Below are positions 4,558 through 15,867 of a DNA stretch of 54,597 nucleotides, in pieces. The notes under the pieces are model-generated. The model had not been told where the DNA came from. It did not search any database and saw only the letters and a program-made list of their open reading frames with translations. How positions within the stretch are numbered: position 1 is the stretch's first letter; each line of letters begins with the position of its first letter. The translations under genes were made by a program, and so were the position numbers. The stretch is from Lysobacter sp. Root690 (GTDB lineage Bacteria > Pseudomonadota > Gammaproteobacteria > Xanthomonadales > Xanthomonadaceae), in NCBI RefSeq assembly GCF_001427785.1, contig NZ_LMHM01000014.1, positions 89,319-143,915 of the forward strand, written 5' to 3'.

Positions 4558-4666
4558 AAATATTTCACGAGTTGTTTAACGCCGCGGCGATGCGGGGATT
4601 TCGCCGGTGGTGATTTGAGTGGGGGCGGGCGCGGTGCGTCCGGGTCACGAGGGTGCGGGGCAGGGG

Positions 4667-7009
4667 ATGTCGAAGAACAGTTCACTACATCGGCTGGGTC
4701 AGCCGTGGGCGCTGGTGCCGTTGCAGCAATTGCTGGAACAGCCCGACCCGTCCGACGCGCGGTCTCGCTACATCGCCGAGGGTGACGATCCTCAATTCGA
4801 GGTGCGCGCGGCTCACGGGGGCGCGTTGCCGGCGACCGGCTGGTACCTGTTGACGGTGGATTTCGCTGTCGACGACGGCGCGATCGTCGCGCCGTGCCTG
4901 TACCCCGATTATGGCAGCGGCCTCAACGAATCCATCCGCATCGACCTGGCCGATCCGAGCGCGAACGGACGCTCGCGGACGGTGATCGTGATCGGCCCGT
5001 CGCTGCTGGCGTTGCGTTTCGATCCGACCGAATGCGGCGCGTGCTTCGGCCTGCGCCGTTTCGATTTCCAGCCGATTTCGCGCGTGCGCGCGGTGTTCGA
5101 AATGCTGCGCGGCATCCAGCGCATCACCCGGCGATTGCTGTGGGAAGACGCGTTGACCGCGTTCGCGTTGTTTCTCAGCCGGGCCTTGCGCGGCAGGGTC
5201 GGCGCCGGCGGCGAACTGCTCGCGCAACGCTACCGCCGCACCCTGCGTCAGCGCGCGCATTCGTATCAACAGTGGCTGGCGCGGTTCGGCGGTCATCTGT
5301 CCGAGCGTGCCGGCGCCGCATCGATCGACCCGGCCGGCGACGGCCCGCTGATCTCGATCGTGCTGCCGGTGCGCGACACGCCGCTGCCTTGGCTGCGCCG
5401 CTGCATCGACAGCGTGCTCGCCCAGACCTATCCGAACTGGCAACTGTGCATCGCCGACGACGCCTCCTCCTCGGGCGCGGTCAAGCGTCTGTTGCGCGGC
5501 TACGCCAGTCGCGACCCGCGCATCGCCGTGCATTTCCGCGAGAACCACGGGCATATCTGCGAGGCGAGCAACAACGCGATCGATCTGGCGCGCGGCGAGT
5601 TTATCGGCTTCCTCGATCACGACGACGAACTGCATGTCGATGCGCTGGGCGAAATGGCGCGGGCGATCGGCGAGCATCCCGATGTGCGCTTGCTGTACTC
5701 CGACGAGGACAAGATCGACGAATCGGGCGATCGCTACGAGCCGCATTTCAAACCGGCCTGGAATCCGGACCTGCTGTGCGGGCAGAACTATGTCTGTCAC
5801 TTCACCGTGATCCAGGCCGAACTGGTGCGCGAGCTGGGTGGATTGCGTCCCGGCTACGAAGGCGCGCAGGACCACGATCTGATCCTGCGTTGCGCCGAAC
5901 GCATCCAACCCGATCAAATCGTGCATGTACCCAAGGTGCTGTATCACTGGCGCTCAAGCGGTGAATCCACGGCGCAAAGCGGCGGCAGCAAGCCCTACGC
6001 GCTGGATGCGGGCAGGCGCGCGATCGAGGATCACCTGGGCCGCACCGGCGTGGACGCGAGCGTTGAGGTGACGCAGCATGGCTATTACCGCACGGTGCGC
6101 AAGCTCGGCGCGGAACCGCCCCAGGTATCCGTATTGGTGCCGACCCGGGATCGCGCCGACCTGTTGAAGAAGTGCATCGCCAGCTTGCTCGAGCGGACCT
6201 CCTATCGTTCGTACGAAATACTGGTGATCGACAACGGCTCGACCGAGCCGTCCGCGCTGGCCTACCTCAACCAGCTTCGAACGCGCGAGCGTGTCCGCGT
6301 TATCGAGTATCCGGGCACTTTCAATTTTTCCGCGATCATCAATCATGGCGCGCATCATGCAGCGGGCAGCGTGCTGTGCCTGCTCAATAACGACACCGAA
6401 ATAATCGCCGCCCAATGGCTGGACGAATTGGTGTCGCATGCTACGCGCACCGAAGTCGGCGCCGTAGGCGGCATGCTGTACTACCCCGGAGACACCATCC
6501 AGCACGCGGGGGTGATCCTCGGCGTCGGCGGCATTGCCGGCCATGCCCACGTCCACCTGCGTCGCGGCAGCAACGGTTACCTCGGGCGCGCGGGTGTCGT
6601 GCAGAACATGAGCGCCGTCACCGGCGCCTGCCTCGCGATACGGCGCGAGGTGTTCGACGAGGTCGGCGGCATGGACGAGGGCCTGGCCATCGCGTTCAAC
6701 GACATCGACCTGTGCCTGCGTATCCACGAACGCGGCTATCGCAACGTGTGGACGCCGTTCGCCGAACTTTACCATCACGAATCGGCGAGCCGCGGACACG
6801 AAAACACGCCGGAAAAACGCGCGCGCTTCCGCACCGAGACCGACATCATGCGCCAGCGCTGGGGCGACCTGTTGCTCAACGATCCCGCCTATAACCCGAA
6901 CCTGTCGTTGAACAGTCTGCATTTCGAGCTGGCGTTTCCGCCGCGTTCCATGGCCAGCCGCGTCTCGGGCGCCGTTCGGCCTTCCCATTGCGTACTGGTG
7001 AGCCCATGA
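4667..7009 (+). CDS. Two-domain GT2 family glycosyltransferase
   Basis: A 780-residue protein with a roughly 220-residue N-terminal beta-rich region of unknown role and two GT2 (GT-A fold) domains. The first begins near residue 229 (ISIVLPVRD), with DDASSSG and the metal-binding FLDHDDEL, and the family motif YSDEDKID. The second begins near residue 486 (VSVLVPTRDRADLL), with DNGST, LLNNDTE and FNDIDLCLRI. Such double GT2 proteins assemble O-antigen or capsule repeat units from nucleotide sugars at the inner membrane's cytoplasmic face. The frame is open from a GTG at 4619, but ATG 4667 is preferred because a purine-rich GGGGCAGGGG precedes it. Its stop overlaps the next start as ATGA (7006-7009), implying translational coupling to the exporter permease. 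Confidence 0.9.
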   Translation: MSKNSSLHRLGQPWALVPLQQLLEQPDPSDARSRYIAEGDDPQFEVRAAHGGALPATGWYLLTVDFAVDDGAIVAPCLYPDYGSGLNESIRIDLADPSANGRSRTVIVIGPSLLALRFDPTECGACFGLRRFDFQPISRVRAVFEMLRGIQRITRRLLWEDALTAFALFLSRALRGRVGAGGELLAQRYRRTLRQRAHSYQQWLARFGGHLSERAGAASIDPAGDGPLISIVLPVRDTPLPWLRRCIDSVLAQTYPNWQLCIADDASSSGAVKRLLRGYASRDPRIAVHFRENHGHICEASNNAIDLARGEFIGFLDHDDELHVDALGEMARAIGEHPDVRLLYSDEDKIDESGDRYEPHFKPAWNPDLLCGQNYVCHFTVIQAELVRELGGLRPGYEGAQDHDLILRCAERIQPDQIVHVPKVLYHWRSSGESTAQSGGSKPYALDAGRRAIEDHLGRTGVDASVEVTQHGYYRTVRKLGAEPPQVSVLVPTRDRADLLKKCIASLLERTSYRSYEILVIDNGSTEPSALAYLNQLRTRERVRVIEYPGTFNFSAIINHGAHHAAGSVLCLLNNDTEIIAAQWLDELVSHATRTEVGAVGGMLYYPGDTIQHAGVILGVGGIAGHAHVHLRRGSNGYLGRAGVVQNMSAVTGACLAIRREVFDEVGGMDEGLAIAFNDIDLCLRIHERGYRNVWTPFAELYHHESASRGHENTPEKRARFRTETDIMRQRWGDLLLNDPAYNPNLSLNSLHFELAFPPRSMASRVSGAVRPSHCVLVSP

Positions 7010-7797
7010 GCCTATTGTTCACGCATCTTCTGCACAGCTTGAGGCGACCGGACCATTGGGTCTATGGAAGCTGGCTGGATACCGTAGTCAAATACCGAAA
7101 GACTCGCTTGGGCATTGTCTGGCTGTTGATTCCCACGGTCGTATACATCTGGGGCATCGGCGGTTTCCTGGCCGCGTTGCAGCCAGGCGTCAGCGGGCCG
7201 AATTTTCTGGCGCACGTCGGCATGGGCTTCCTAGTGTTTAGATTTTTTTCGACTGTGCTGATCGACGCTACATCGGTCTTCGCCAACAGCCAGTCCTACA
7301 TCTATGACGGTCATGTGCGCCTGACCGATTTCGTTCTGCGATCCGTGGCGCGGTCGTTCTATTACTTCCTGCTTTCCCTGCCCGTGGTTGCGATTGCCGT
7401 ACTGGCTTCGCCGCAATTCGACCCGGCCGGACTAGCGCCATCGATCGCGGGCATGGCGGTGGTTGTGCTGAACCTGTTTCTCTACGGCGTACTGTTTTCG
7501 ATCGCGGGGGCTCGCTTCCCGGATCTGCACGAACTGATGGGCAGCGCGATCATGGCGTTGTTCTTGATCACGCCGATTGTCTGGTACTCGAGTGCGGCCT
7601 CTGCGGAGACATTGCATGGCCAGTTGATGCGATTGAATCCGCTGTATCACTTGCTGGCGGTGGTGCGTGGTCCGTTGCTCCAGGAAGCTGTCGAGCCGAC
7701 GACCTATGCCTATCTGGGCGGGCTCACGCTGGTGGGCGTATTGCTTGCGTCCGTTGTCTACGGCGCGAAGGCACGTCGCGTGCCCGTTTGGCTTTGA
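7006..7797 (+). CDS. wzm: ABC-2 type polysaccharide export permease (Wzm-like)
   Basis: A 263-residue inner-membrane protein with about six hydrophobic segments (for example LGIVWLLIPTVVYIW, FYYFLLSLPVVAIAVLA, GMAVVVLNLFLYGVLFSIAG, AIMALFLITPIVWY). The N-terminal YRKTRLGIVWLLIPT and the RLNPLYHLLAVVRGPLL segment are typical of Wzm/KpsM/TagG permeases, which move a finished undecaprenol-linked glycan across the inner membrane. It pairs with the ATPase 10 bp downstream. The start overlaps the upstream stop by ATGA. The symbol denotes the type of function; the exact polymer is unknown. Confidence 0.9.
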   Translation: MSLLFTHLLHSLRRPDHWVYGSWLDTVVKYRKTRLGIVWLLIPTVVYIWGIGGFLAALQPGVSGPNFLAHVGMGFLVFRFFSTVLIDATSVFANSQSYIYDGHVRLTDFVLRSVARSFYYFLLSLPVVAIAVLASPQFDPAGLAPSIAGMAVVVLNLFLYGVLFSIAGARFPDLHELMGSAIMALFLITPIVWYSSAASAETLHGQLMRLNPLYHLLAVVRGPLLQEAVEPTTYAYLGGLTLVGVLLASVVYGAKARRVPVWL

Positions 7798-7807
7798 GGT
7801 TGAAACC

Positions 7808-8935
7808 ATGACTGTATGCCTGAACGTCCATGACGTATCCCTAGAATTGCCTTTGGATCTGCAGCGTGGCTCGACCGCGGGCGCCATGGGTTTCAAGGCC
7901 GCGCTATCCGGCAGTGTGCGTCGCTATGCCACCGTATTGTCGCGAATCGAATTTGCTGCTCGCGAGGGCGACAGAATTGCGTTGATCGGATTGAATGGTG
8001 CGGGAAAGAGCACGCTGCTGCGGGTGCTCAACGGCGCGTTGGCTCCCACCCGTGGCTCGGTCGAGCGTCGCGGCACCATGCAATCTCTGCTCAACGCGAC
8101 AATTGGATTTTCGGAATATGCGTCGGTCACCGAAAACATCATCCTCCGCGGCACTGCGATGGGTCTACGGCGCCGACAGCTGCTGCACGCACTGGGCGAC
8201 ATCCTGGACTTCTCCGGCCTGCGCGATCGCGCGAATTACCGATTGCACGCCCTGTCGTCCGGACAGCGAATGCGCTTGGGGTTCGCGATATCCACCTGTG
8301 TTCAGCCCGACATTTTGCTGATGGATGAGTGGATCGCCACCGGCGACGCTGCGTTCATGGAGCGTGCGCGAAGTCGCATGGAGGACCGATTCAATCACAG
8401 CAGGATCGTGGTGATGGCAAGCCACGGAATAGAGCTGCACAGGCGTGTGTGCAACAAGGCGCTGGTGATGGACAACGGAAAGATGCGCTATTTCGGCGAT
8501 ATAGAAGAAGGCATAGAGGCCTATCAGGACATCGTTTCCAGGGTCGGCGCGCAGTTGCAGACGCAGGCCCGTGCATCCGATCCCTTGTTGTTCGGACACG
8601 CCACGGGCGTGGTTGAACGGGTACGCATCGTGGAAGGCGGCATCGAGCTGGAAGGTTGGGCGACCGACGACCGGGGCGGCGAGGTCGGCATGGTCCTGGT
8701 CGAAGCAAACGGCGTTCGCGAAATGCTGGAGCCCGAGCGAGTGGATCGCCTGGACGTGCGCCTGCATCTGGCGAAGAAGTCGGGCCGCTATGGATTCCGG
8801 GTGACGATGCTACGGCCGGCGCGCTTCGACCCCGACGGATTCATCAGCACCTTGAGGGTCAGCGCCGGTCGATTGGCGGGGAAGGCCGGTGCGCCGTTGC
8901 CGTTGGCGAACGCCGCGCTAATCGAAATGAATTGA
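7808..8935 (+). CDS. wzt: Polysaccharide export ATPase (Wzt-like) with unusual C-terminus
   Basis: A 375-residue ABC ATPase, partner of the preceding permease. It has Walker A GLNGAGKST (61-69), signature LSSGQRMRLG (149-158) and Walker B ILLMDE (169-174). The KpsT/Wzt-type feature DEWIATGDAAF follows Walker B. After the nucleotide-binding domain a region of about 130 residues (from about 245) contains IELEGWATDDRGGE and SGRYGFRVTM. In O-antigen systems the Wzt C-terminus recognises the capped polymer end; this one does not look like the standard jelly-roll Wzt domain but resembles small GWAxD beta domains found beside glycosyltransferases. The ATG at 7808 gives a normal N-terminus (MTVCLNVHDVSLELP). 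Nineteen bp separate it from the next gene. Confidence 0.9.
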   Translation: MTVCLNVHDVSLELPLDLQRGSTAGAMGFKAALSGSVRRYATVLSRIEFAAREGDRIALIGLNGAGKSTLLRVLNGALAPTRGSVERRGTMQSLLNATIGFSEYASVTENIILRGTAMGLRRRQLLHALGDILDFSGLRDRANYRLHALSSGQRMRLGFAISTCVQPDILLMDEWIATGDAAFMERARSRMEDRFNHSRIVVMASHGIELHRRVCNKALVMDNGKMRYFGDIEEGIEAYQDIVSRVGAQLQTQARASDPLLFGHATGVVERVRIVEGGIELEGWATDDRGGEVGMVLVEANGVREMLEPERVDRLDVRLHLAKKSGRYGFRVTMLRPARFDPDGFISTLRVSAGRLAGKAGAPLPLANAALIEMN

Positions 8936-8954: not shown

Positions 8955-9824
8955 ATGTTCAAGAAGGCGGCGGTAAAAGCGGTTGAAAAAGCGGAAAATG
9001 CGTCCGCGCTGAACGATGTCGTCAGCGTGATTGTACGTTTCCACGACATACGCGAGCTGCCAAAACTGGAGCGGGCAATCCAGAGCTTGCATGCGCAGAC
9101 AGATGCGGAGATTCAACCAATCGTGGTGACGCAGCGGTTCAGTCCATCGGATGTCGAGGCCACTTCGCGCGCGGTAGCCAGGCAGTGGTTCTTCGATTGG
9201 CTACCCGCCGCCTCGGTGGTCAACTATTCGGACGAAGGGATAGGCGATGCGCGTTCGGATCTGATGAATCTGGGGATTCAAAGACATCTGAAGCTCGGTA
9301 ATCGCTTCCTGGCGTTCCTGGATTACGACGACATTCTCTACACGCATGCCTACAAAATCCTGAAGCGACCGCTGCTGGAAACCCAGGTGGCGGTTTCATT
9401 CGCCGGCATCGAGATGGCGCATGCGGTCGGTATGCGCGATTACGACTTCATATACGACATGAGCTATCCGTTCGTTGGCAAGAATAAGATGGATTTGGTC
9501 AAGGATAATTTTTGTCCTTTGCATTCGTATCTAATCGATTGTTCGAAAATTGATCCATGTGAGCTGTATTTCAGGAGCGAGCTGAGCCGGGTCGAGGACT
9601 ACGACTTCCTGCTGCGCGTCGCCGGGCCCAACCCTTGCGATTTCTCCGCGCTCGGTTGTCGGATAGGCATTTACATCATCCGTAGCGATCACAGTAACAG
9701 CACCCCGAGCAACAACGGAAGCGAAGAGGATCGCGAGAAACAGGAGGTATGGAAGCGCAATCGCGATCGCCTTGACGCCTTGCGCAGTACCTACCAAGTG
9801 AAACTGTTCGCCTCGGATTTTTGA
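8955..9824 (+). CDS. GT2-like glycosyltransferase
   Basis: A 289-residue predicted glycosyltransferase. The fold start VVSVIVRFHDIRELPKLERAI and the metal-binding FLDYDDILY (D123, D125, D126) support a GT-A fold; VEDYDFLLRVA corresponds to the acceptor/base region of GT2 enzymes. It has no membrane segment, so it likely acts at the membrane's cytoplasmic face on a lipid-linked intermediate. The stop is 3 bp from the next start (9828). AT-ending codons are more frequent than in flanking housekeeping genes (for example 9480-9560), hinting at acquired DNA. Donor and acceptor cannot be read from sequence. Confidence 0.8.
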   Translation: MFKKAAVKAVEKAENASALNDVVSVIVRFHDIRELPKLERAIQSLHAQTDAEIQPIVVTQRFSPSDVEATSRAVARQWFFDWLPAASVVNYSDEGIGDARSDLMNLGIQRHLKLGNRFLAFLDYDDILYTHAYKILKRPLLETQVAVSFAGIEMAHAVGMRDYDFIYDMSYPFVGKNKMDLVKDNFCPLHSYLIDCSKIDPCELYFRSELSRVEDYDFLLRVAGPNPCDFSALGCRIGIYIIRSDHSNSTPSNNGSEEDREKQEVWKRNRDRLDALRSTYQVKLFASDF

Positions 9825-9827
9825 TCA

Positions 9828-11519
9828 ATGTTGAACGAAAAATTAGCCGAAATGGCATTGTTGCGTGAGTCGGGCTTGTTCGATCCAGAATATCTGGCGC
9901 GGGCCATAGGCGTGGACCTGAGCAAAGCGGCGAGTGTCCCGGTCGAATTCATGTATCTCGAGAGCCGAGACTACTGGGGCGCCTCCACCTCCGCGCTGTT
10001 TAACGGGCGCTACTATCTGGATAGCAATCCGGATCTGGTCGCAAGCGACGTCAATCCGCTGTTGCACTACGTTACGCATGGATTCTTCGAGGGGCGTGCG
10101 CCCTGTGTTCTGTTCGACATGGACTACATTCTCGAACAGATTCAACCAGGTTCAAGCGGATGGGATCTGGAGCGAAAGCGCGAGCAGTTCCGTCGGTTTC
10201 GCGGACTACGCCATATGTTGCAATGCACCGACGTCGATCCAGGCCCGTTCTTCGAGAACGCGGTGTACCGCAAATCCGAGGGGCGACCGGCCATGAACTC
10301 CGAGGACATTCCATTGGAGCGCTATCTCAACGTCCGAGGGCGCTGCGATGCCGGATACCTGGAATGCAGCTCGCTGGCATCCATGGCGTACTACATGTCG
10401 GACAATCTTGACTTGGAGCAGGCCAACGTCGTCCCATTACTGCATCTGATCCAGTACGGACTCGCCGAAGGGCGACGATTCGCGCCCGACGAGCGGGTTA
10501 GTGCCCAGTTCCTGAGGAACTCCGCACATCTGTCCGGAAACGATGCGTTTCGCAGCGTCAAGGGATTCCTCGCGCATACCAGGGGAACCGGACGCATCGC
10601 CGGGCCTGCGTGGCCGACACCCTATGCCCGCGATTCGCTGCCATCGCTGCGTCATCGAGCCCACGAGCGTCGACGCGATGCGTTCATTGGGATAGTGCTT
10701 TACGACAATAGCGAGGAAGAGCTCAGGCGTCTGGATGCGTCGCTGCGAAATGAAGTGCGCATCAGCGACGGCTATCGTATCGATTGGATGTACTACGTGA
10801 ACGATCCCGAAAACCTTCCGCGATATCGAAAGGTTCTGGGCGACAGGATCATTTTCGACGAGAACTGCGCAAACATCGGCTTTGGTCGAGCGCACAACGA
10901 ATTGATGAGGCGCTGCTTCGATACGGATCGGTTGTACATCGGGGCCAACCCGGATGGGTACTTCACTCCGGGTTGCATAAAGGCCTTGCTTGATTTTTCC
11001 GACTTCTATGGCGATCAGGCCTTGATCGAGGGAAGTGCGGCGCCTATCGATCATCCGAAATGGCACGATCCGGTGACTCTGGATACCGCTTGGGTTTCCG
11101 GTGCTTGCTTCGCGCTGCCCTACAAGCTTTGGACGCAGGTCGGCGGGTTCGACGAAAAGATTCATATGTACTGCGAGGATGTCGATCTGTCGTGGCGTGT
11201 CAGGCTGATCGGTGGCTACCTCAAGGTGTGTCCGGCCGCCCGATTCGTGCATGACGTCACGCCGAGGTTCATCGGCGACAAGGCATCGACGACCGAGCGC
11301 AGCCGCCAGCAATCGATGTTGGCCGGTGGATACTACCTGGCTCGAAAATGGGGTGGGGACGAGCAAGCACAGCGGTTACGCGAGGAGTTCGGTCGACTGG
11401 TCGGCCGCGACAATCTGCATCTTCTCGAAGAGCCGGTGTTCGAGATGGATCGCAAGATCGCGCGAAAGGTCGCGGATTTTTCCCTGCCTAGATTCGCCCC
11501 GTCACGGTTCTGGAACTGA
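9828..11519 (+). CDS. GT2 glycosyltransferase with N-terminal YLxxNPDL modules
   Basis: A 563-residue protein. Residues from about 286 form a GT2 domain: IGIVLYDNSEEEL, NIGFGRAHNELM (rhamnosyltransferase-like), GANPDGYFTPG as the DxD-type site, WVSGACFALP and DEKIHMYCEDVDLSWRVRL. The N-terminal half carries two copies of a short module: YYLDSNPDLVASDVNPLLHY with FFEGR (from about 55) and YYMSDNLDLEQANVVPLLHL with LAEGR (from about 185). The same module occurs in the proteins at 11571 and 14920, suggesting a shared docking or carbohydrate-associated role. Starts 3 bp after the previous stop. Confidence 0.85.
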   Translation: MLNEKLAEMALLRESGLFDPEYLARAIGVDLSKAASVPVEFMYLESRDYWGASTSALFNGRYYLDSNPDLVASDVNPLLHYVTHGFFEGRAPCVLFDMDYILEQIQPGSSGWDLERKREQFRRFRGLRHMLQCTDVDPGPFFENAVYRKSEGRPAMNSEDIPLERYLNVRGRCDAGYLECSSLASMAYYMSDNLDLEQANVVPLLHLIQYGLAEGRRFAPDERVSAQFLRNSAHLSGNDAFRSVKGFLAHTRGTGRIAGPAWPTPYARDSLPSLRHRAHERRRDAFIGIVLYDNSEEELRRLDASLRNEVRISDGYRIDWMYYVNDPENLPRYRKVLGDRIIFDENCANIGFGRAHNELMRRCFDTDRLYIGANPDGYFTPGCIKALLDFSDFYGDQALIEGSAAPIDHPKWHDPVTLDTAWVSGACFALPYKLWTQVGGFDEKIHMYCEDVDLSWRVRLIGGYLKVCPAARFVHDVTPRFIGDKASTTERSRQQSMLAGGYYLARKWGGDEQAQRLREEFGRLVGRDNLHLLEEPVFEMDRKIARKVADFSLPRFAPSRFWN

Positions 11520-11570
11520 GATGCGTCGCTCGCTCGATCGCCCAGACAACGTAAAAAGATCGTCCGGCCA

Positions 11571-14027
11571 ATGAAAAAAGTCATAACGTTTGGAACCTTT
11601 GACCTGTTGCACGACGGACATTTGAGGATTCTGGAGCGGGCGAAATCGCTGGGCGACTACCTGGTCGTGGGCGTGTCCACGGATCACTTGAATGCGCAGA
11701 AGGGCAAGCGTTCCTTCTTCGACCAGAAGCATCGTATGGAATGCGTCGCGGCTCTGAAGGTCGTAGATGAGGTGTTCTTCGAAGACTCGCTGGAGCGAAA
11801 GGATGAATACATTCGCGAGCATGGCGCCGATTTGCTCGTCATGGGTGACGATTGGCGCGGAAAGTTCGACTGGGTCAGTTGCGAGGTAGTGTATCTCACC
11901 AGGACGCCGGGAATTTCATCCACCGAGGTGAAGCTCGAGCTTGGGGATCGCTTCAAATGCAAGCGGGTTCTATTCGGCGATACCTACATCCGCAAACATT
12001 ACGACTGCGCCTTGAGTCTGGTCAACGAACTCACTGCCGCCAATATCGCGCCGATATTCTCGGCAGGCCAGACTCTGCCCAGCGGAGTGGATTGCGATTG
12101 TCTGGTGTATTTCAATCTTCCGATGAGCGCACCGGCGAGCGAGTACGCTAGCAAGCCCAGGGTATTGGTCGATCATGGCGCCAGTCACTTGAAGTGGTTC
12201 TTGTCGAACCCCGCGCGTTTCGACTTCTTCGACGTGATCGTCACCGCAGGACCGGATCACACCAATGCCCTGCTGACGTTCTTTTCCGACATCGGCGGCA
12301 GCTACGGCAAGGTCAGGTCGGCCGGATTCATCAAGTCCGGGCAACTGCTGCAGCCGCCCTTGTTAAGCAGGGAGCAGATCGCGCTCAAGTATGCGCTGAA
12401 CCCCGCGCGGCCCATCATTCTGTTCGCGCCGACCTGGCACATTTCCAATAATCCGGACATGGCAGCCGCGATTTTGGAGATAGCCAAGATCGATAACCAT
12501 GTCGCGTTGCTGCATCCAGAAACCGCGCATCTGGATGTTTCAAGGCTGAATGTCGCGCTGAACGAAAGCGGAGTGGTCAGTGAGCTGCTCAAGCATGCCG
12601 ACTGTGTGGTTTCCGATCTCTCCTCGACGATCTACGAGGCCGCGGCGTTGGGGCGGCCGGTCGTGCAGCTGTTGCTCAGGGAGTATTCCGACAACAATGC
12701 CGTCGTTTATGACTTCCCCTATGCAGCGGGCACGGCCGAGCTGTTTTGTGGCGGGTTGCCGACACGTCCGGATGGAGTGATGCGCGCCGTCGACAGGATC
12801 CTGGCAGCGGACGAGCATGTGTCCGTGGCCTTGCAACGCATGCGTAACAGAATCCTGCATGGTACGAGGATCGAGGCAGGGAGCGTGAAGGCAGTGGCGA
12901 CGGAGATCGCTCGTGCGTGTGACATGGAGCAAGGGCGGTCCCTGGTCGAGCTGCGCGAGCGACGAAAGACGGAGTCCTCTTATTCGGCCGCGCACCAGAA
13001 CTTGTTCTTCTCACGAAACCGCTTGATTGCTCAAAAAGGCGGCAGGTTCAAGGGAGTGAATGAGTCAAGTTCCCGCGAGGCGATCGAGTGCGCTTTGGTC
13101 GCGGTGGATTGGGTGGAGTTGGAATTCTCCCGCTGCGCTGATGGCGTCGTCGTCGCGCGGCAAGGAACCGAGGAAAAATACGGACTCAAACAAGAATTCA
13201 TATCGACATCGACAGAGCAGTTCCTGCTGAGTCGGTTCGAGGGCGGGTTGACGCCGATCGCCGTCGAGGATGCGATCGGGCTTTGCGCGCGAAAGGGGCG
13301 GGCCTTGGTCTGCGGTATTTCAAGTGACCGGGACTACGAATTCACCATCTCGCATCTGGCGAACACATCGCGCTCGGCTGGCTTGATCAATCAGGTGGTA
13401 ATGAAATGCTACAGCGTGGAGCATTTCGATGCCGCGCTCAGGTCGGGTTTTTCAAGAATCATTTTGTCCGTTGAGAAACGTCACGCGAACGATCCGCTCG
13501 GATCGGAGGCCTTCGACTTCATTGACGCGTGCCTCATGATCAATTCGCGTTGCGTGGTCGGTATAGATGTTCCGTACAAGAACCCGTCGATGGTCCTTTC
13601 CTGTCTGGACGATCCGCGCACGCTCGGCCTATATGCGACCTGGAAGCGTGTGTACGTGCATGGGGCGCCGCCGAAGGAGTATGGTCGTATTCTCAACCAG
13701 AATTTTGGCCTGTTCGCGCACGGCTACTCGGCCGCTTACGATTTCTCCGATAAGCCGCAGAATTTTCATTGGCCGACATATCTTTTCCTGCATCCCGACG
13801 TGGCCAGGGCCGGGTTGGCCAATCCTGTCGGTGCGACGTTGCACTATCTCACCTATGGCGCCAACGAGGGTAGGGCCACCCGCTACTCGGCACCCGCGGA
13901 TTTTATGCATGGCGCGTATCTGGACCTGAACCCTGGACTGAGGGACGCGGGCATCAGTGGGGAGCACAGCGCAAAGGCGCACTGGACAAAATACGGAGCG
14001 GTGGAAAATCGACGTTACAGGCGTTAG
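11571..14027 (+). CDS. Fused glycerol-P cytidylyltransferase / CDP-glycerol glycerophosphotransferase-like / GDPD-like protein
   Basis: An 818-residue multidomain protein. Residues 1-130 are a cytidylyltransferase of the TagD/GCT type: GTFDLLHDGH with HxGH at 14-17 and RTPGISSTE near 114, predicted to make CDP-glycerol or a related CDP-alditol from CTP. Residues about 140-460 resemble TagB/TagF glycerophosphotransferases: VLVDHGASHLKW (about 199), LFAPTWH (about 285) and SDLSSTIYEAAALGRPVV (about 348). Residues about 470-725 resemble a glycerophosphodiester phosphodiesterase barrel (AIECALVAVDWVELEF, DGVVVARQ), but the catalytic HRG appears as QKG and the HD as RQ. The C-terminus has two YLxLNPDV-like modules (733-818). 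Predicted role is adding glycerol phosphate to the exported glycan. In Gram-positive teichoic acid systems these activities are separate proteins. Third-domain assignment is the least certain. Confidence 0.8.
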   Translation: MKKVITFGTFDLLHDGHLRILERAKSLGDYLVVGVSTDHLNAQKGKRSFFDQKHRMECVAALKVVDEVFFEDSLERKDEYIREHGADLLVMGDDWRGKFDWVSCEVVYLTRTPGISSTEVKLELGDRFKCKRVLFGDTYIRKHYDCALSLVNELTAANIAPIFSAGQTLPSGVDCDCLVYFNLPMSAPASEYASKPRVLVDHGASHLKWFLSNPARFDFFDVIVTAGPDHTNALLTFFSDIGGSYGKVRSAGFIKSGQLLQPPLLSREQIALKYALNPARPIILFAPTWHISNNPDMAAAILEIAKIDNHVALLHPETAHLDVSRLNVALNESGVVSELLKHADCVVSDLSSTIYEAAALGRPVVQLLLREYSDNNAVVYDFPYAAGTAELFCGGLPTRPDGVMRAVDRILAADEHVSVALQRMRNRILHGTRIEAGSVKAVATEIARACDMEQGRSLVELRERRKTESSYSAAHQNLFFSRNRLIAQKGGRFKGVNESSSREAIECALVAVDWVELEFSRCADGVVVARQGTEEKYGLKQEFISTSTEQFLLSRFEGGLTPIAVEDAIGLCARKGRALVCGISSDRDYEFTISHLANTSRSAGLINQVVMKCYSVEHFDAALRSGFSRIILSVEKRHANDPLGSEAFDFIDACLMINSRCVVGIDVPYKNPSMVLSCLDDPRTLGLYATWKRVYVHGAPPKEYGRILNQNFGLFAHGYSAAYDFSDKPQNFHWPTYLFLHPDVARAGLANPVGATLHYLTYGANEGRATRYSAPADFMHGAYLDLNPGLRDAGISGEHSAKAHWTKYGAVENRRYRR

Positions 14028-14072
14028 CTCGATGGCGTCTTTTCATATCCATGACAAGCAGGTTGGCGCGGC

Positions 14073-14807
14073 ATGAAGCTTCCGCATTTCATCAGCAGTT
14101 ATCTCAATCAAAGTCGCAGCCTGATCGGATCGCACGATATGGCCAGGGCGATGGAGCTGGCGGTGGGTGGGGACTTCGAGACGGTTGGTGTCTTGGAGTT
14201 CTGTTTGCTCAAGCATCTGGGGTTGCGACCGGAGCAATCTATCATCGATGTCGGTTGTGGCAGCGGTCGGCTCGCGGTCCAACTCAAGGATTATCTGGTC
14301 GGAAGCTTCGTTGGAATCGATGTCGTGCCGGAGTTGCATCAGTACGCGCGGACGCTGTGCGGACGAAATGACTGGCGTTTCTACACGGCGCCCGGCGTCA
14401 CGATTCCCGAGCCGGATGAGTCGGCCGATTTCGTCGTGTTCTTTTCCGTATTCACTCACCTGTTGCATGAGGAAACCTATCGCTATTTACGTGAGGCCCG
14501 GCGCGTTCTCAAGCCGGATGGACGAATCGTATTTTCGTTCCTGGAATTTCGTATCGCCTCGCATTGGTTCATTTTCGAAAATTCGGTGCGCGACGAACGG
14601 CCTGAGAAGGTGCTTAATCAATTCATCGACCGCGACATGATCGGCGCCTTCGCCCGTCATCTCGACTTGGAAATTGTTCAGATCCACGATGGCCATCTTC
14701 CGCATATTCCGATTGACCGGACCTTGCGCTGGGCCGACGGACGGGAGGTCCGCGACATGGGGACGTTGGGACAGTCGGTGTGCGTGCTGGGTCGGGCCGT
14801 CGCTTGA
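14073..14807 (+). CDS. Class I SAM-dependent methyltransferase
   Basis: A 244-residue methyltransferase with the SAM motif IIDVGCGSGRLAVQL, the acidic GIDVVPEL at the end of beta-2, and the post-motif LREARRVLKPDGRIVFSFLEF typical of small-molecule or sugar methyltransferases. As part of the glycan operon (45 bp after the upstream gene) it may methylate a sugar, or cap the non-reducing end and so stop elongation, as methyltransferases do in several ABC-exported O-antigens. That role is inferred from context. The ATG at 14073 gives a natural N-terminus. Confidence 0.85.
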   Translation: MKLPHFISSYLNQSRSLIGSHDMARAMELAVGGDFETVGVLEFCLLKHLGLRPEQSIIDVGCGSGRLAVQLKDYLVGSFVGIDVVPELHQYARTLCGRNDWRFYTAPGVTIPEPDESADFVVFFSVFTHLLHEETYRYLREARRVLKPDGRIVFSFLEFRIASHWFIFENSVRDERPEKVLNQFIDRDMIGAFARHLDLEIVQIHDGHLPHIPIDRTLRWADGREVRDMGTLGQSVCVLGRAVA

Positions 14808-14919
14808 ACGACCCACTTGTGCGGCTGAAGGCAGTTGCGTGCCGGCGTGGTGCGTCCGCGTTGTTATTGTCGACGATTCGTGTCCAAGACGGCTGCATCG
14901 GGCGCGGGGATGAATATTC

Positions 14920-15867
14920 GTGAACGCACTTCCACTTCAGGTCGTCGCTGACGAAAGCAACTACGATGAAGCTGCTTATCTGCGCGGGAACGCGGATGTA
15001 GCGCGAGAGGTGGCGGCGGGCCGTTGTGCGAGCGGCCGGGCGCATTTCGATGCGTTTGGTCGGTTCGAGCGGCGCGGTCTGCGTCTGACGATCCCGGCGT
15101 CCTGGAAGCAGGAAAAGCTGGCGAAGGTGCGCCCGCTGCTGAGCGCGGAGATGGAATGCGTGGAGTCGATGGATTGCCTGAATTTTCTGAGCGCGGAACT
15201 TGCCGAAGAGTTCGGCATCGTCGCTACCGAAAACGTCAGCTCCCACGGATACGACCACGAGGCGCTAGGTTTGGTCGAGCGCCATCGCGACGGACTCGTG
15301 CTGGATTGTGGTGCGGGACTGCGCGACATCTATTACCGAAACGTCGTGAATTGCGAGGTCGTGGCTTACGACACCACCGACGTGCTGGCGGTCGCCGAGC
15401 GTCTACCGTTCACCGACGAAAGCTTCGATGCGGTGCTGAGCTTGAATGTACTCGAACACGTCAAGGACCCGTTTCAGGCGGCGCGCGAATTGATGCGCGT
15501 GCTCAAGCCGGGAGGTCAGTTGATGTGCGTGGCCCCTTTTCTGCAGCCGCTGCATGGCTATCCCCATCACTACTACAATATGACCCGGCAAGGCATAGAC
15601 AATTTATTTTCCGGATTGTTGGAGCGGCGCATAGAAGTCTACGGCGCCATGAAACCGATATGGGCCTTGAATTGGTTTCTCACTCGTTACCACGCCGGAC
15701 TGCCGCCCGAGTCTCGCGAACGCTTCGCGATGATGACCGTCGCCGAGCTGATGACCTCTCCGGAGACATTGGAGCTCGACGGGATCAACTTGGGATTGAG
15801 CGCTGGGGCTTGTACCGAATTGGCCTCGGCCCATGCCTTGTTCGGATGCAAGCCCGGTCGCAATTGA
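14920..15867 (+). CDS. SAM-dependent methyltransferase with N-terminal YLxxN module
   Basis: A 315-residue protein starting at GTG. Residues about 14-55 are another copy of the operon's module (YDEAAYLRGNADVAREV ... HFDAFGRFERR). Residues about 120-235 are a methyltransferase core: VLDCGAGLRDIYY, SFDAVLSLNVLEHVKDP and LMRVLKPGGQLMCVAPFLQP. The C-terminal part (HGYPHHYYNMTRQGIDNLF) is common in sugar-associated methyltransferases. It is the last plus-strand gene of the operon, 112 bp after the previous one, and converges on the NUDIX gene with 61 bp between stops. Confidence 0.8.
   Translation: MNALPLQVVADESNYDEAAYLRGNADVAREVAAGRCASGRAHFDAFGRFERRGLRLTIPASWKQEKLAKVRPLLSAEMECVESMDCLNFLSAELAEEFGIVATENVSSHGYDHEALGLVERHRDGLVLDCGAGLRDIYYRNVVNCEVVAYDTTDVLAVAERLPFTDESFDAVLSLNVLEHVKDPFQAARELMRVLKPGGQLMCVAPFLQPLHGYPHHYYNMTRQGIDNLFSGLLERRIEVYGAMKPIWALNWFLTRYHAGLPPESRERFAMMTVAELMTSPETLELDGINLGLSAGACTELASAHALFGCKPGRN

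Follow-up and report, generated by a model that had tools for sequence, protein, structure and literature searches.

Results

An 818-codon fusion gene and its relatives

The window, by which we mean the whole 54,597-nucleotide stretch of Lysobacter sp. Root690 analysed here, carries at positions 11571-14027 of the forward strand a single ATG-to-stop reading frame of 818 codons with no internal stop. The frame begins 51 bases past the stop of the upstream gene and starts straight with the beginning of a TagD domain (MKKVITFGTFDLLH). We divide it as follows, the residue numbers being those of the encoded protein:

11571..11945, + strand: predicted TagD-type CTP:glycerol-3-phosphate cytidylyltransferase domain, residues 1-125 (PF01467, TIGR01518, 1coz, invariant residues)
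11958..12920, + strand: predicted short, divergent TagF/TagB-type (PF04464) glycerophosphotransferase domain, residues 130-450, candidate catalytic H202 and H315 (PF04464, hhalign, Cps3D match)
12921..12995, + strand: variable linker, residues 451-475 (mean pairwise identity 14%)
12996..13706, + strand: degenerate GDPD-like domain, residues 476-712 (related to GDPD over the first 50-100 residues, the remainder placed by position only)
13707..14024, + strand: C-terminal region with two NPDV modules, at 13779-13874 and, as a weak second copy, 13917-14012

The same four-part order runs end to end through proteins of Lysobacter sp. Root916, Pseudoxanthomonas sp. PXM03 and Lysobacter sp. yr284, which are 65%, 59% and 59% identical to the window's protein (the start of the yr284 protein is tentative, and in the alignment its row starts one codon late). 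The arrangement is therefore neither a chance product nor a fusion created by assembly error; the latter is ruled out by the same fused open frame in three further genomes. Among the four orthologues, mean pairwise identity is 79% in TagD, 67% in the TagF-like part (133-450), 41% in the GDPD-like part and 62% at the C-terminus, compared to the 14% of the linker.

How widespread is this order? Of sixty relatives, 8 matched at all and 3, the window's own genome among them, did so over the full length; in a family sample of 297 genomes the corresponding numbers were 36 and 4, the four being the window's genome and the three named above. Samples of the class (369 genomes, 279 matching) and of the phylum (398 genomes, 288 matching) contain no extra full-length copy among the matches listed, which were ordered by E-value; many weaker matches in these samples (E above about 1e-13) fall in frames of some 470-560 aa, which we take to be HldE-type proteins. 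When residues 130-818 were searched against the class, 11 of 369 genomes matched, and only the window's own did so end to end. Matches were also found by tblastn in 72 of 72,556 plasmid and 52 of 50,697 phage records, none covering 80% of the query. By these counts the four-part order is genuine and rare, and all its detected occurrences in these samples fall within Lysobacteraceae. The first-pass annotation, made from the letters of the window, knew of no standard family with this order, and the searched samples bear it out, with four genomes among the matches listed. We found no description of a TagD-TagF fusion architecture in the open-access literature, which omits most subscription journals.

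We also rejected the idea that TagD-TagF fusions are common elsewhere: the six other long TagD-bearing frames that we scanned have other partners, three (L113-L115) being fused to a GFO/IDH oxidoreductase and three (L116-L118) carrying an N-terminal extension, identified by Pfam as HIT in two of the three. Long TagD frames outside these six are L051 (646 aa) and L052 (678 aa), with TagD at the frame end, and L054 (445 aa).

A conserved glycan gene cluster

The fusion gene lies among genes of likely glycan synthesis and export, which we compared with the loci of the three orthologues:

4619..7009, + strand: glycosyltransferase with two GT2 domains, 796 aa (4/4 clusters)
6988..7797, + strand: permease of a Wzm/Wzt-type ABC polysaccharide exporter
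7667..8935, + strand: ATPase of the same exporter (true start probably further in)
8955..9824, + strand: probable glycosyltransferase, 289 aa (weak, NF007482 E 0.0015; 4/4 clusters)
9828..11519, + strand: probable glycosyltransferase with two NPDV modules, 563 aa (weak GT2, PF13632 E 0.0014; 4/4 clusters)
14920..15867, + strand: NPDV module and methyltransferase, 315 aa (1/3 other clusters)

A core of six genes (796-aa GT2 protein, Wzm, Wzt, 289-aa protein, 563-aa protein, fusion) is kept in this order at all four loci, with the five core neighbours of the fusion 51-68% identical across loci. Three downstream genes, named by eye, are likewise common to all four: an exonuclease-like, a nitroreductase-like and a 797-aa gene, the product of the last being only 31% alike in PXM03. 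The methyltransferase and hexapeptide acyltransferase-like genes in between differ among loci. Matches to the NCBIfam Wzm/Wzt models stay under cut-off, and the best ones include galactan-type Wzm/Wzt. The only match in the genome to PF05159 (capsule synthesis) lies on a different contig; we therefore guess that the product is O-antigen-like rather than a group 2 capsule. In the open-access literature that we searched we found no description of a glycerol-phosphate polysaccharide of Lysobacter, nor a glycan structure for any of these strains.

The TagD domain

As the mark of a TagD enzyme we took HxGH and RTxGISTT with catalytic H14, H17 and R113 (B. subtilis numbering). The HxGH and RTPGISSTE stretches on which the first-pass annotation had rested a cytidylyltransferase are both in place, HxGH as HDGH at residues 14-17 and RTPGISSTE at residues 111-119, and their key residues are kept in all four orthologues, where the motifs read HxGH and R111-T112-x-G-(I/V)-S-S-(T/S). 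Invariant across the four are D11, H14, H17, K44, K46, R55, D94, W95, R111 and T112, along with G114, S116 and S117 of the RTPGISSTE stretch, while P113, I115 and T118 vary; in terms of the STT of RTxGISTT, the first T is S in all four fused proteins and the second is S in one. The roles of HxGH, RTxGISTT and K44/K46 in TagD are described in the accessible portion of PMC8262930. Matches to PF01467 (E 3.2e-22, Pfam) and PDB entry 1coz (E 7.3e-40) agree, and in a separate PDB search the glycerol-3-phosphate enzymes 1coz (E 1.3e-44) and 2b7l (E 7e-38) came far ahead of an ethanolamine enzyme (3.2e-19). Homology and residues together make a strong case for assigning residues 1-125 to TagD.

The equivalog model TIGR01518 matches at E 1.8e-39, yet the score of 134.7 bits is below the cut-off of 165.4, which is missed by all four fused TagDs (134.7, 137.5, 113.5 and 139.2 bits); because of this, glycerol is not secured as the alcohol substrate. 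Five of seven stand-alone TagDs that we scanned miss it too (124.5-133.2 bits), including three with a small PF04464 gene adjoining, while the two beside TPR-TagF polymerases pass (182.1 and 172.8 bits). Low scores are thus common to the fused TagDs and to stand-alone TagDs of small gene pairs, which suggests a subgroup of the family rather than outsiders. At E <= 1 the window's genome has no TagD match other than the fused one, so that at this threshold no second CDP-glycerol source of the TagD family was found there.

The predicted transferase domain

The second domain is harder to recognize. PF04464 matches the window's protein at E 1.5e-4 and 21.3 bits, just under the gathering score of 22.1 (23.2 bits in a six-frame search of the window), and the four whole orthologues score 21.3, 33.0, 17.4 and 15.6 bits, one of four above it. 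A profile of the four orthologues, in turn, finds Cps3D (8qoy) at E 2.9e-6 and TagF (3l7i) only at 0.055. With hhalign, the domain aligns to the TagF domains of relatives at Prob 96.4 and 97.3, chiefly in the C-terminal half, and to four small PF04464 proteins at Prob 97.1 over 198 columns with 25% identity, against 0.1 for a reversed control. Note that these small proteins are above the Pfam cut-off and that Pfam covers only their C-terminal half. The TagF-like assignment is thus weak by single sequence and firm by profile, mainly for the C-terminal half, and residues 130-450 would be of GT-B type.

Two histidines are critical in the PF04464 family, according to a figure legend in PMC5974469 and, reportedly, to Schertzer 2005. 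In the hhalign alignment with the four small TagF-like proteins, D-H202-G falls on F-H-G and L-H315-P on F-H-P, and both histidines are kept in all four orthologues. With TagF, a forced global alignment (Prob 98.6) gave no credible placement for the N-terminal half, and a mafft alignment with classical TagF put H202 off the WHG histidine. The SDLSST...GRP stretch, from which a transferase had been read at first pass, is present at residues 348-363, with S351, S352, T353, G361 and P363 invariant in the four orthologues, D349 variable and GRP replaced by GKP in the other three. Family matches, profiles and conserved residues support the original proposal that a cytidylyltransferase and a glycerophosphotransferase-like domain share one chain.

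The GDPD-like region

The annotation of a GDPD-like module survives in part. No Pfam family, PF03009 included, matches the region in any of the four members at E <= 10, and a PDB profile search gave 2oog (E 0.34) and 3ks5 (E 1.2) alongside thymidine kinases (0.40 and 0.66), values that are not significant alone. Searched against 247 family genomes, the GDPD-like profile matched 17 at E <= 0.01, two of which are fusion genomes; the 15 others (E 0.0017-0.0082) match in the first part of the domain in 14 cases and solely near its end in one (G031). Ten of the 15 became loci, and all eight that were scanned are PF03009 proteins (L072 and L070, a near copy of L069, were left unscanned). Aligned by hhalign to seven of these GDPDs, the region reaches Prob 92.5 over just 49 columns with 33% identity, the reversed control 0.1. 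Together with the PF03009 relatives, this argues for GDPD ancestry of the first 50-100 residues or so. The half after about residue 560 received no credible family assignment, global hhalign being untrustworthy there.

What did not stand is an active phosphodiesterase. In the columns that we take to be the catalytic H, E-x-D and H of GDPD, the window's protein, Root916, PXM03 and yr284 have, in this order, Q/H/C/E at the first His, E/E/E/S and E/D/D/S at E-x-D, and Q/E/G/A at the second His. With these residues lost or variable and with no Pfam match in four members, we reject a full GDPD. At the same time, dN is 0.47-0.73 in this part with dS near saturation (five of six pairs could be used for the TagF-like part, and likewise for the GDPD-like and C-terminal ones), which weakly indicates constraint. 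We found no account of GDPD pseudoenzymes in the open-access literature.

The NPDV modules

An alignment of 14 modules gives the consensus YLxxNPDVAAAGxDPLxHYxxxGxxEGR, and its profile confirms the NPDV modules noted at the outset in the fusion protein, the second copy only weakly (E 0.094); no Pfam family matches this C-terminus. Across the 6.3-Mb genome the profile finds five places at E <= 0.1, all within 5.1 kb: the 563-aa probable glycosyltransferase and the fusion have two each, and the 315-aa methyltransferase has one. Note that 150 of 330 first-look candidates were scored and that three of the five places were in the alignment itself. Since all five detected copies sit in three neighbouring genes of the glycan cluster, we suggest that the modules may serve docking. 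The modules also occur in large PF04464 proteins from this bacterial family; a description of the module was not found in the open-access literature.

Origin of the fusion

Among 16 TagD loci examined, three, in three other genomes of the class (G1000, G984 and G667), have tagD directly 5' of a small PF04464 gene. In G1000 a 138-aa tagD and a 343-aa PF04464 frame are in the same phase with the tagD stop codon between them, and the two frames share 22 bases in both G984 and G667. In view of these split pairs, the 818-aa protein resembles a known tagD and transferase gene pair joined into one. At four TagD loci of the window's own family, the downstream frame is 1444-1509 aa long, with NPDV, TPRs, PF04464 and Glycos_transf_1 in all four.

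In a tree of 60 TagD domains (BLAST E <= 1e-15; identical rows and rows with fewer than 100 aligned residues dropped) the four fused TagDs form one clade (100/99), nested in a 22-row clade (100/100) that holds four rows labelled small-TagF (4/4 such rows), two labelled classical TagF and 12 unlabelled. Set apart from it, 20 rows from the same bacterial family form another clade (98/99), with 12 labelled classical TagF and eight unlabelled. Rows were labelled by searching their flanks, mostly short ones, for motifs, and 36 of 60 rows have no label. From this position in the tree, a single fusion event that started from a small gene pair is the most likely origin. The PXM03 domain groups among those of Lysobacter, so that transfer between genera is conceivable.

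Discussion

The reading that we favour, likely though some way from assured, is of a glycerophosphotransferase that supplies its own donor and serves, in Lysobacter and Pseudoxanthomonas, an O-antigen- or capsule-like surface glycan whose pathway depends on an ABC transporter. The sequence itself shows the two enzyme domains and their conserved residues, the split gene pairs of other genomes and the loss of GDPD residues; from there we infer a course of events that covers enzyme activity, glycerol as the alcohol, acceptor, GDPD-like binder and NPDV docking alike. The TagD domain would make CDP-glycerol from CTP and sn-glycerol-3-phosphate, for which homology and residues are strong, and the short TagF/TagB-type domain would move glycerol-phosphate from CDP-glycerol to an acceptor, for which they are good; the acceptor is probably the glycan built by the three neighbouring probable glycosyltransferases (two assigned on weak matches), prior to Wzm/Wzt export. 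The GDPD-derived domain, its phosphodiesterase chemistry presumably lost, might bind either the glycerophosphodiester product or the acceptor, in the way proposed for the SH3b domain of Bcs3, and the C-terminal NPDV modules, probably non-catalytic, may tether the protein to the neighbouring NPDV-bearing glycosyltransferase and methyltransferase. The first-pass annotation proposed substrate channelling. The fusion itself suggests coupling of CDP-glycerol synthesis and transfer; the bifunctional CDP-ribitol synthase of H. influenzae is reported to work without channelling (cited in the accessible part of PMC10299916). Taken further, NPDV could be the docking tag of an operon assembly line in which the modules hold glycosyltransferase, synthase/transferase and methyltransferase together, CDP-glycerol is handed on in-chain and the dead GDPD clamps the growing glycan, a speculative picture to which we give rather little credence.

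Several other readings need to be weighed. One that is compatible with the two enzymatic steps above is that the protein polymerizes, making poly(glycerol-phosphate) or poly(glycosylglycerol-phosphate) in the manner of Cps3D/Cps7D or TagF, instead of acting as a one-unit, bridging or capping transferase. Its profile does match the capsule polymerase Cps3D, and in its bacterial family large PF04464 proteins have NPDV modules too. However, Pfam finds no TPR or glycosyltransferase domain in the fusion chain, as against five of the six large relatives scanned (the sixth has RgpF and no TPR), and in length the transferase part corresponds to the small PF04464 genes found beside tagD. Cps3D/Cps7D need their TPR domain to extend the linker, and Cps7A, also PF04464, is assigned to adding the first glycerol-phosphate (both from the accessible part of PMC11666461). 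The assignment of Cps7A is why we favour a short-transferase role and consider a polymerase possible but doubtful. It is unlikely, and more so than a polymerase, that a TagD-like cytidylyltransferase fused to its own transferase activates a phospho-alcohol other than glycerol: the missed TIGR01518 cut-off and PDB matches that include ethanolamine-phosphate and choline-phosphate cytidylyltransferases would allow it, but 1coz and 2b7l lead the PDB matches by a wide margin and K44, K46 and R111 are conserved in all four.

The remaining alternatives concern single domains. PF02350 is a weak second match to the middle domain (E 0.015), and it also matches small TagF-like proteins, so one could read this domain as a UDP-GlcNAc 2-epimerase-like GT-B protein and no phosphotransferase. 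PF04464 outscores PF02350 in every protein that lists both, though, the pairing with tagD fits CDP-glycerol transfer, and H202 and H315 are kept in all four orthologues, making this very improbable. Hardly more can be said for a GDPD-like domain that actively hydrolyses, trimming or recycling glycerophosphodiesters, the least probable reading of all: its GDPD ancestry is genuine and the Root916 protein retains the first His, E and D, but the second His is replaced in all four (Q, E, G, A) and the first in three, E and D are both S in yr284, and this is the least conserved of the four domains.

Set beside known systems, the self-supplying transferase that we favour shares family, HxGH, RTxGISxT, K44/K46 and expected reaction with TagD/TarD/GCT (1coz; Cps3B/Cps7B), from which it differs in being joined to its transferase, in falling below the TIGR01518 cut-off and in the S that replaces the first T of STT. 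The small PF04464 transferases beside tagD, which we take to be of the size class of TagB and CpsA, resemble it in length (343-352 aa versus about 320), in the HG and HP histidines, in the SD-SS motif and in the order tagD then transferase (three genomes), but there the two are separate proteins, and identity is 25% (hhalign). With Cps3D, Cps7D and the NPDV-TPR-PF04464-Glycos_transf_1 proteins it shares the expected PF04464 chemistry and, for the members of the same family, NPDV; their tagD adjoins, whereas TagD is in-chain here, NPDV is C-terminal, and the TPR or glycosyltransferase domain of the Cps3D class is not found. The first 50-100 residues of 476-712 align to GDPDs (PF03009) with the DG turn kept, but Pfam gives no match at E <= 10 and the catalytic residues are lost or variable. 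The nearest precedent that we found is Bcs3, the Hib capsule polymerase, a multi-enzyme glycan machine whose CDP-ribitol is made by another protein (PMC10299916, as far as its text is accessible). Bcs3 likewise has several domains around a TagF-like transferase, with an extra domain proposed to hold the polymer, but lacks a CDP-alcohol synthase, which is Bcs1, and its extra domains are phosphatase, CriT and SH3b.

In this protein, donor synthesis and phosphoglycerol transfer, a teichoic-acid-like chemistry, would be joined in one Gram-negative polypeptide, making it a natural test object for CDP-glycerol channelling by such fusions. NPDV is a small module whose detected copies in the genome are confined to three enzymes of a glycan operon, and it could be a means by which they recognize each other. 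Finally, the protein suggests that a GDPD domain may be kept after loss of its active site, perhaps as a binder of glycerophosphodiesters.

NPDV modules and PF04464 proteins

Three neighbouring operon genes (window 10014-15075) are the only places in the whole genome where NPDV modules, which match no Pfam family, were detected. Large proteins of the TagF/TagB-type family PF04464 in relatives (loci L053-L056) bear these modules as well. A single cluster of genome G070 (L053 987-16000) holds three large PF04464 proteins: the first kind, present once, combines an RgpF domain with four NPDV modules, the other two proteins have TPRs and Glycos_transf_1, and two tagD frames are interspersed with them.

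Outside the window, the Root690 genome has a second, weak PF04464 match (contig C1 802822-803190), which lies within an open frame of 345 aa. Most of the searched genomes of the genus have comparable frames, ~345-480 aa long, mostly with no tagD match. Elsewhere in the Root690 genome, a PF05159 capsule-synthesis match (L123, C16 611277-611702) lies within a 1276-aa open frame.

Other TagD-like chains

In three genomes of the class, a TagD-like domain shares one chain with a GFO/IDH/MocA oxidoreductase; in three further loci it lies C-terminal to a part of ~170 aa, which Pfam identifies as HIT in two of the three, and small PF04464-like frames lie nearby.

TagD-like chains at loci of the genomes searched
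L113 5466-6794, minus, oxidoreductase fusion
L114 5719-7149, plus, oxidoreductase fusion
L115 5805-7181, minus, oxidoreductase fusion
L116 4954-5841, minus, N-terminal part and TagD-like domain
L117 4408-5319, minus, N-terminal part and TagD-like domain
L118 6421-7269, plus, N-terminal part and TagD-like domain

Exporter ATPase

7667-8935, Wzt-like ATPase of the window

Relatives' Wzt-like ATPases (seen in L034 and L035) carry a C-terminal extension of ~100 residues with a GWAxDERG stretch; it has no credible Pfam match and is possibly a glycan-recognition part.
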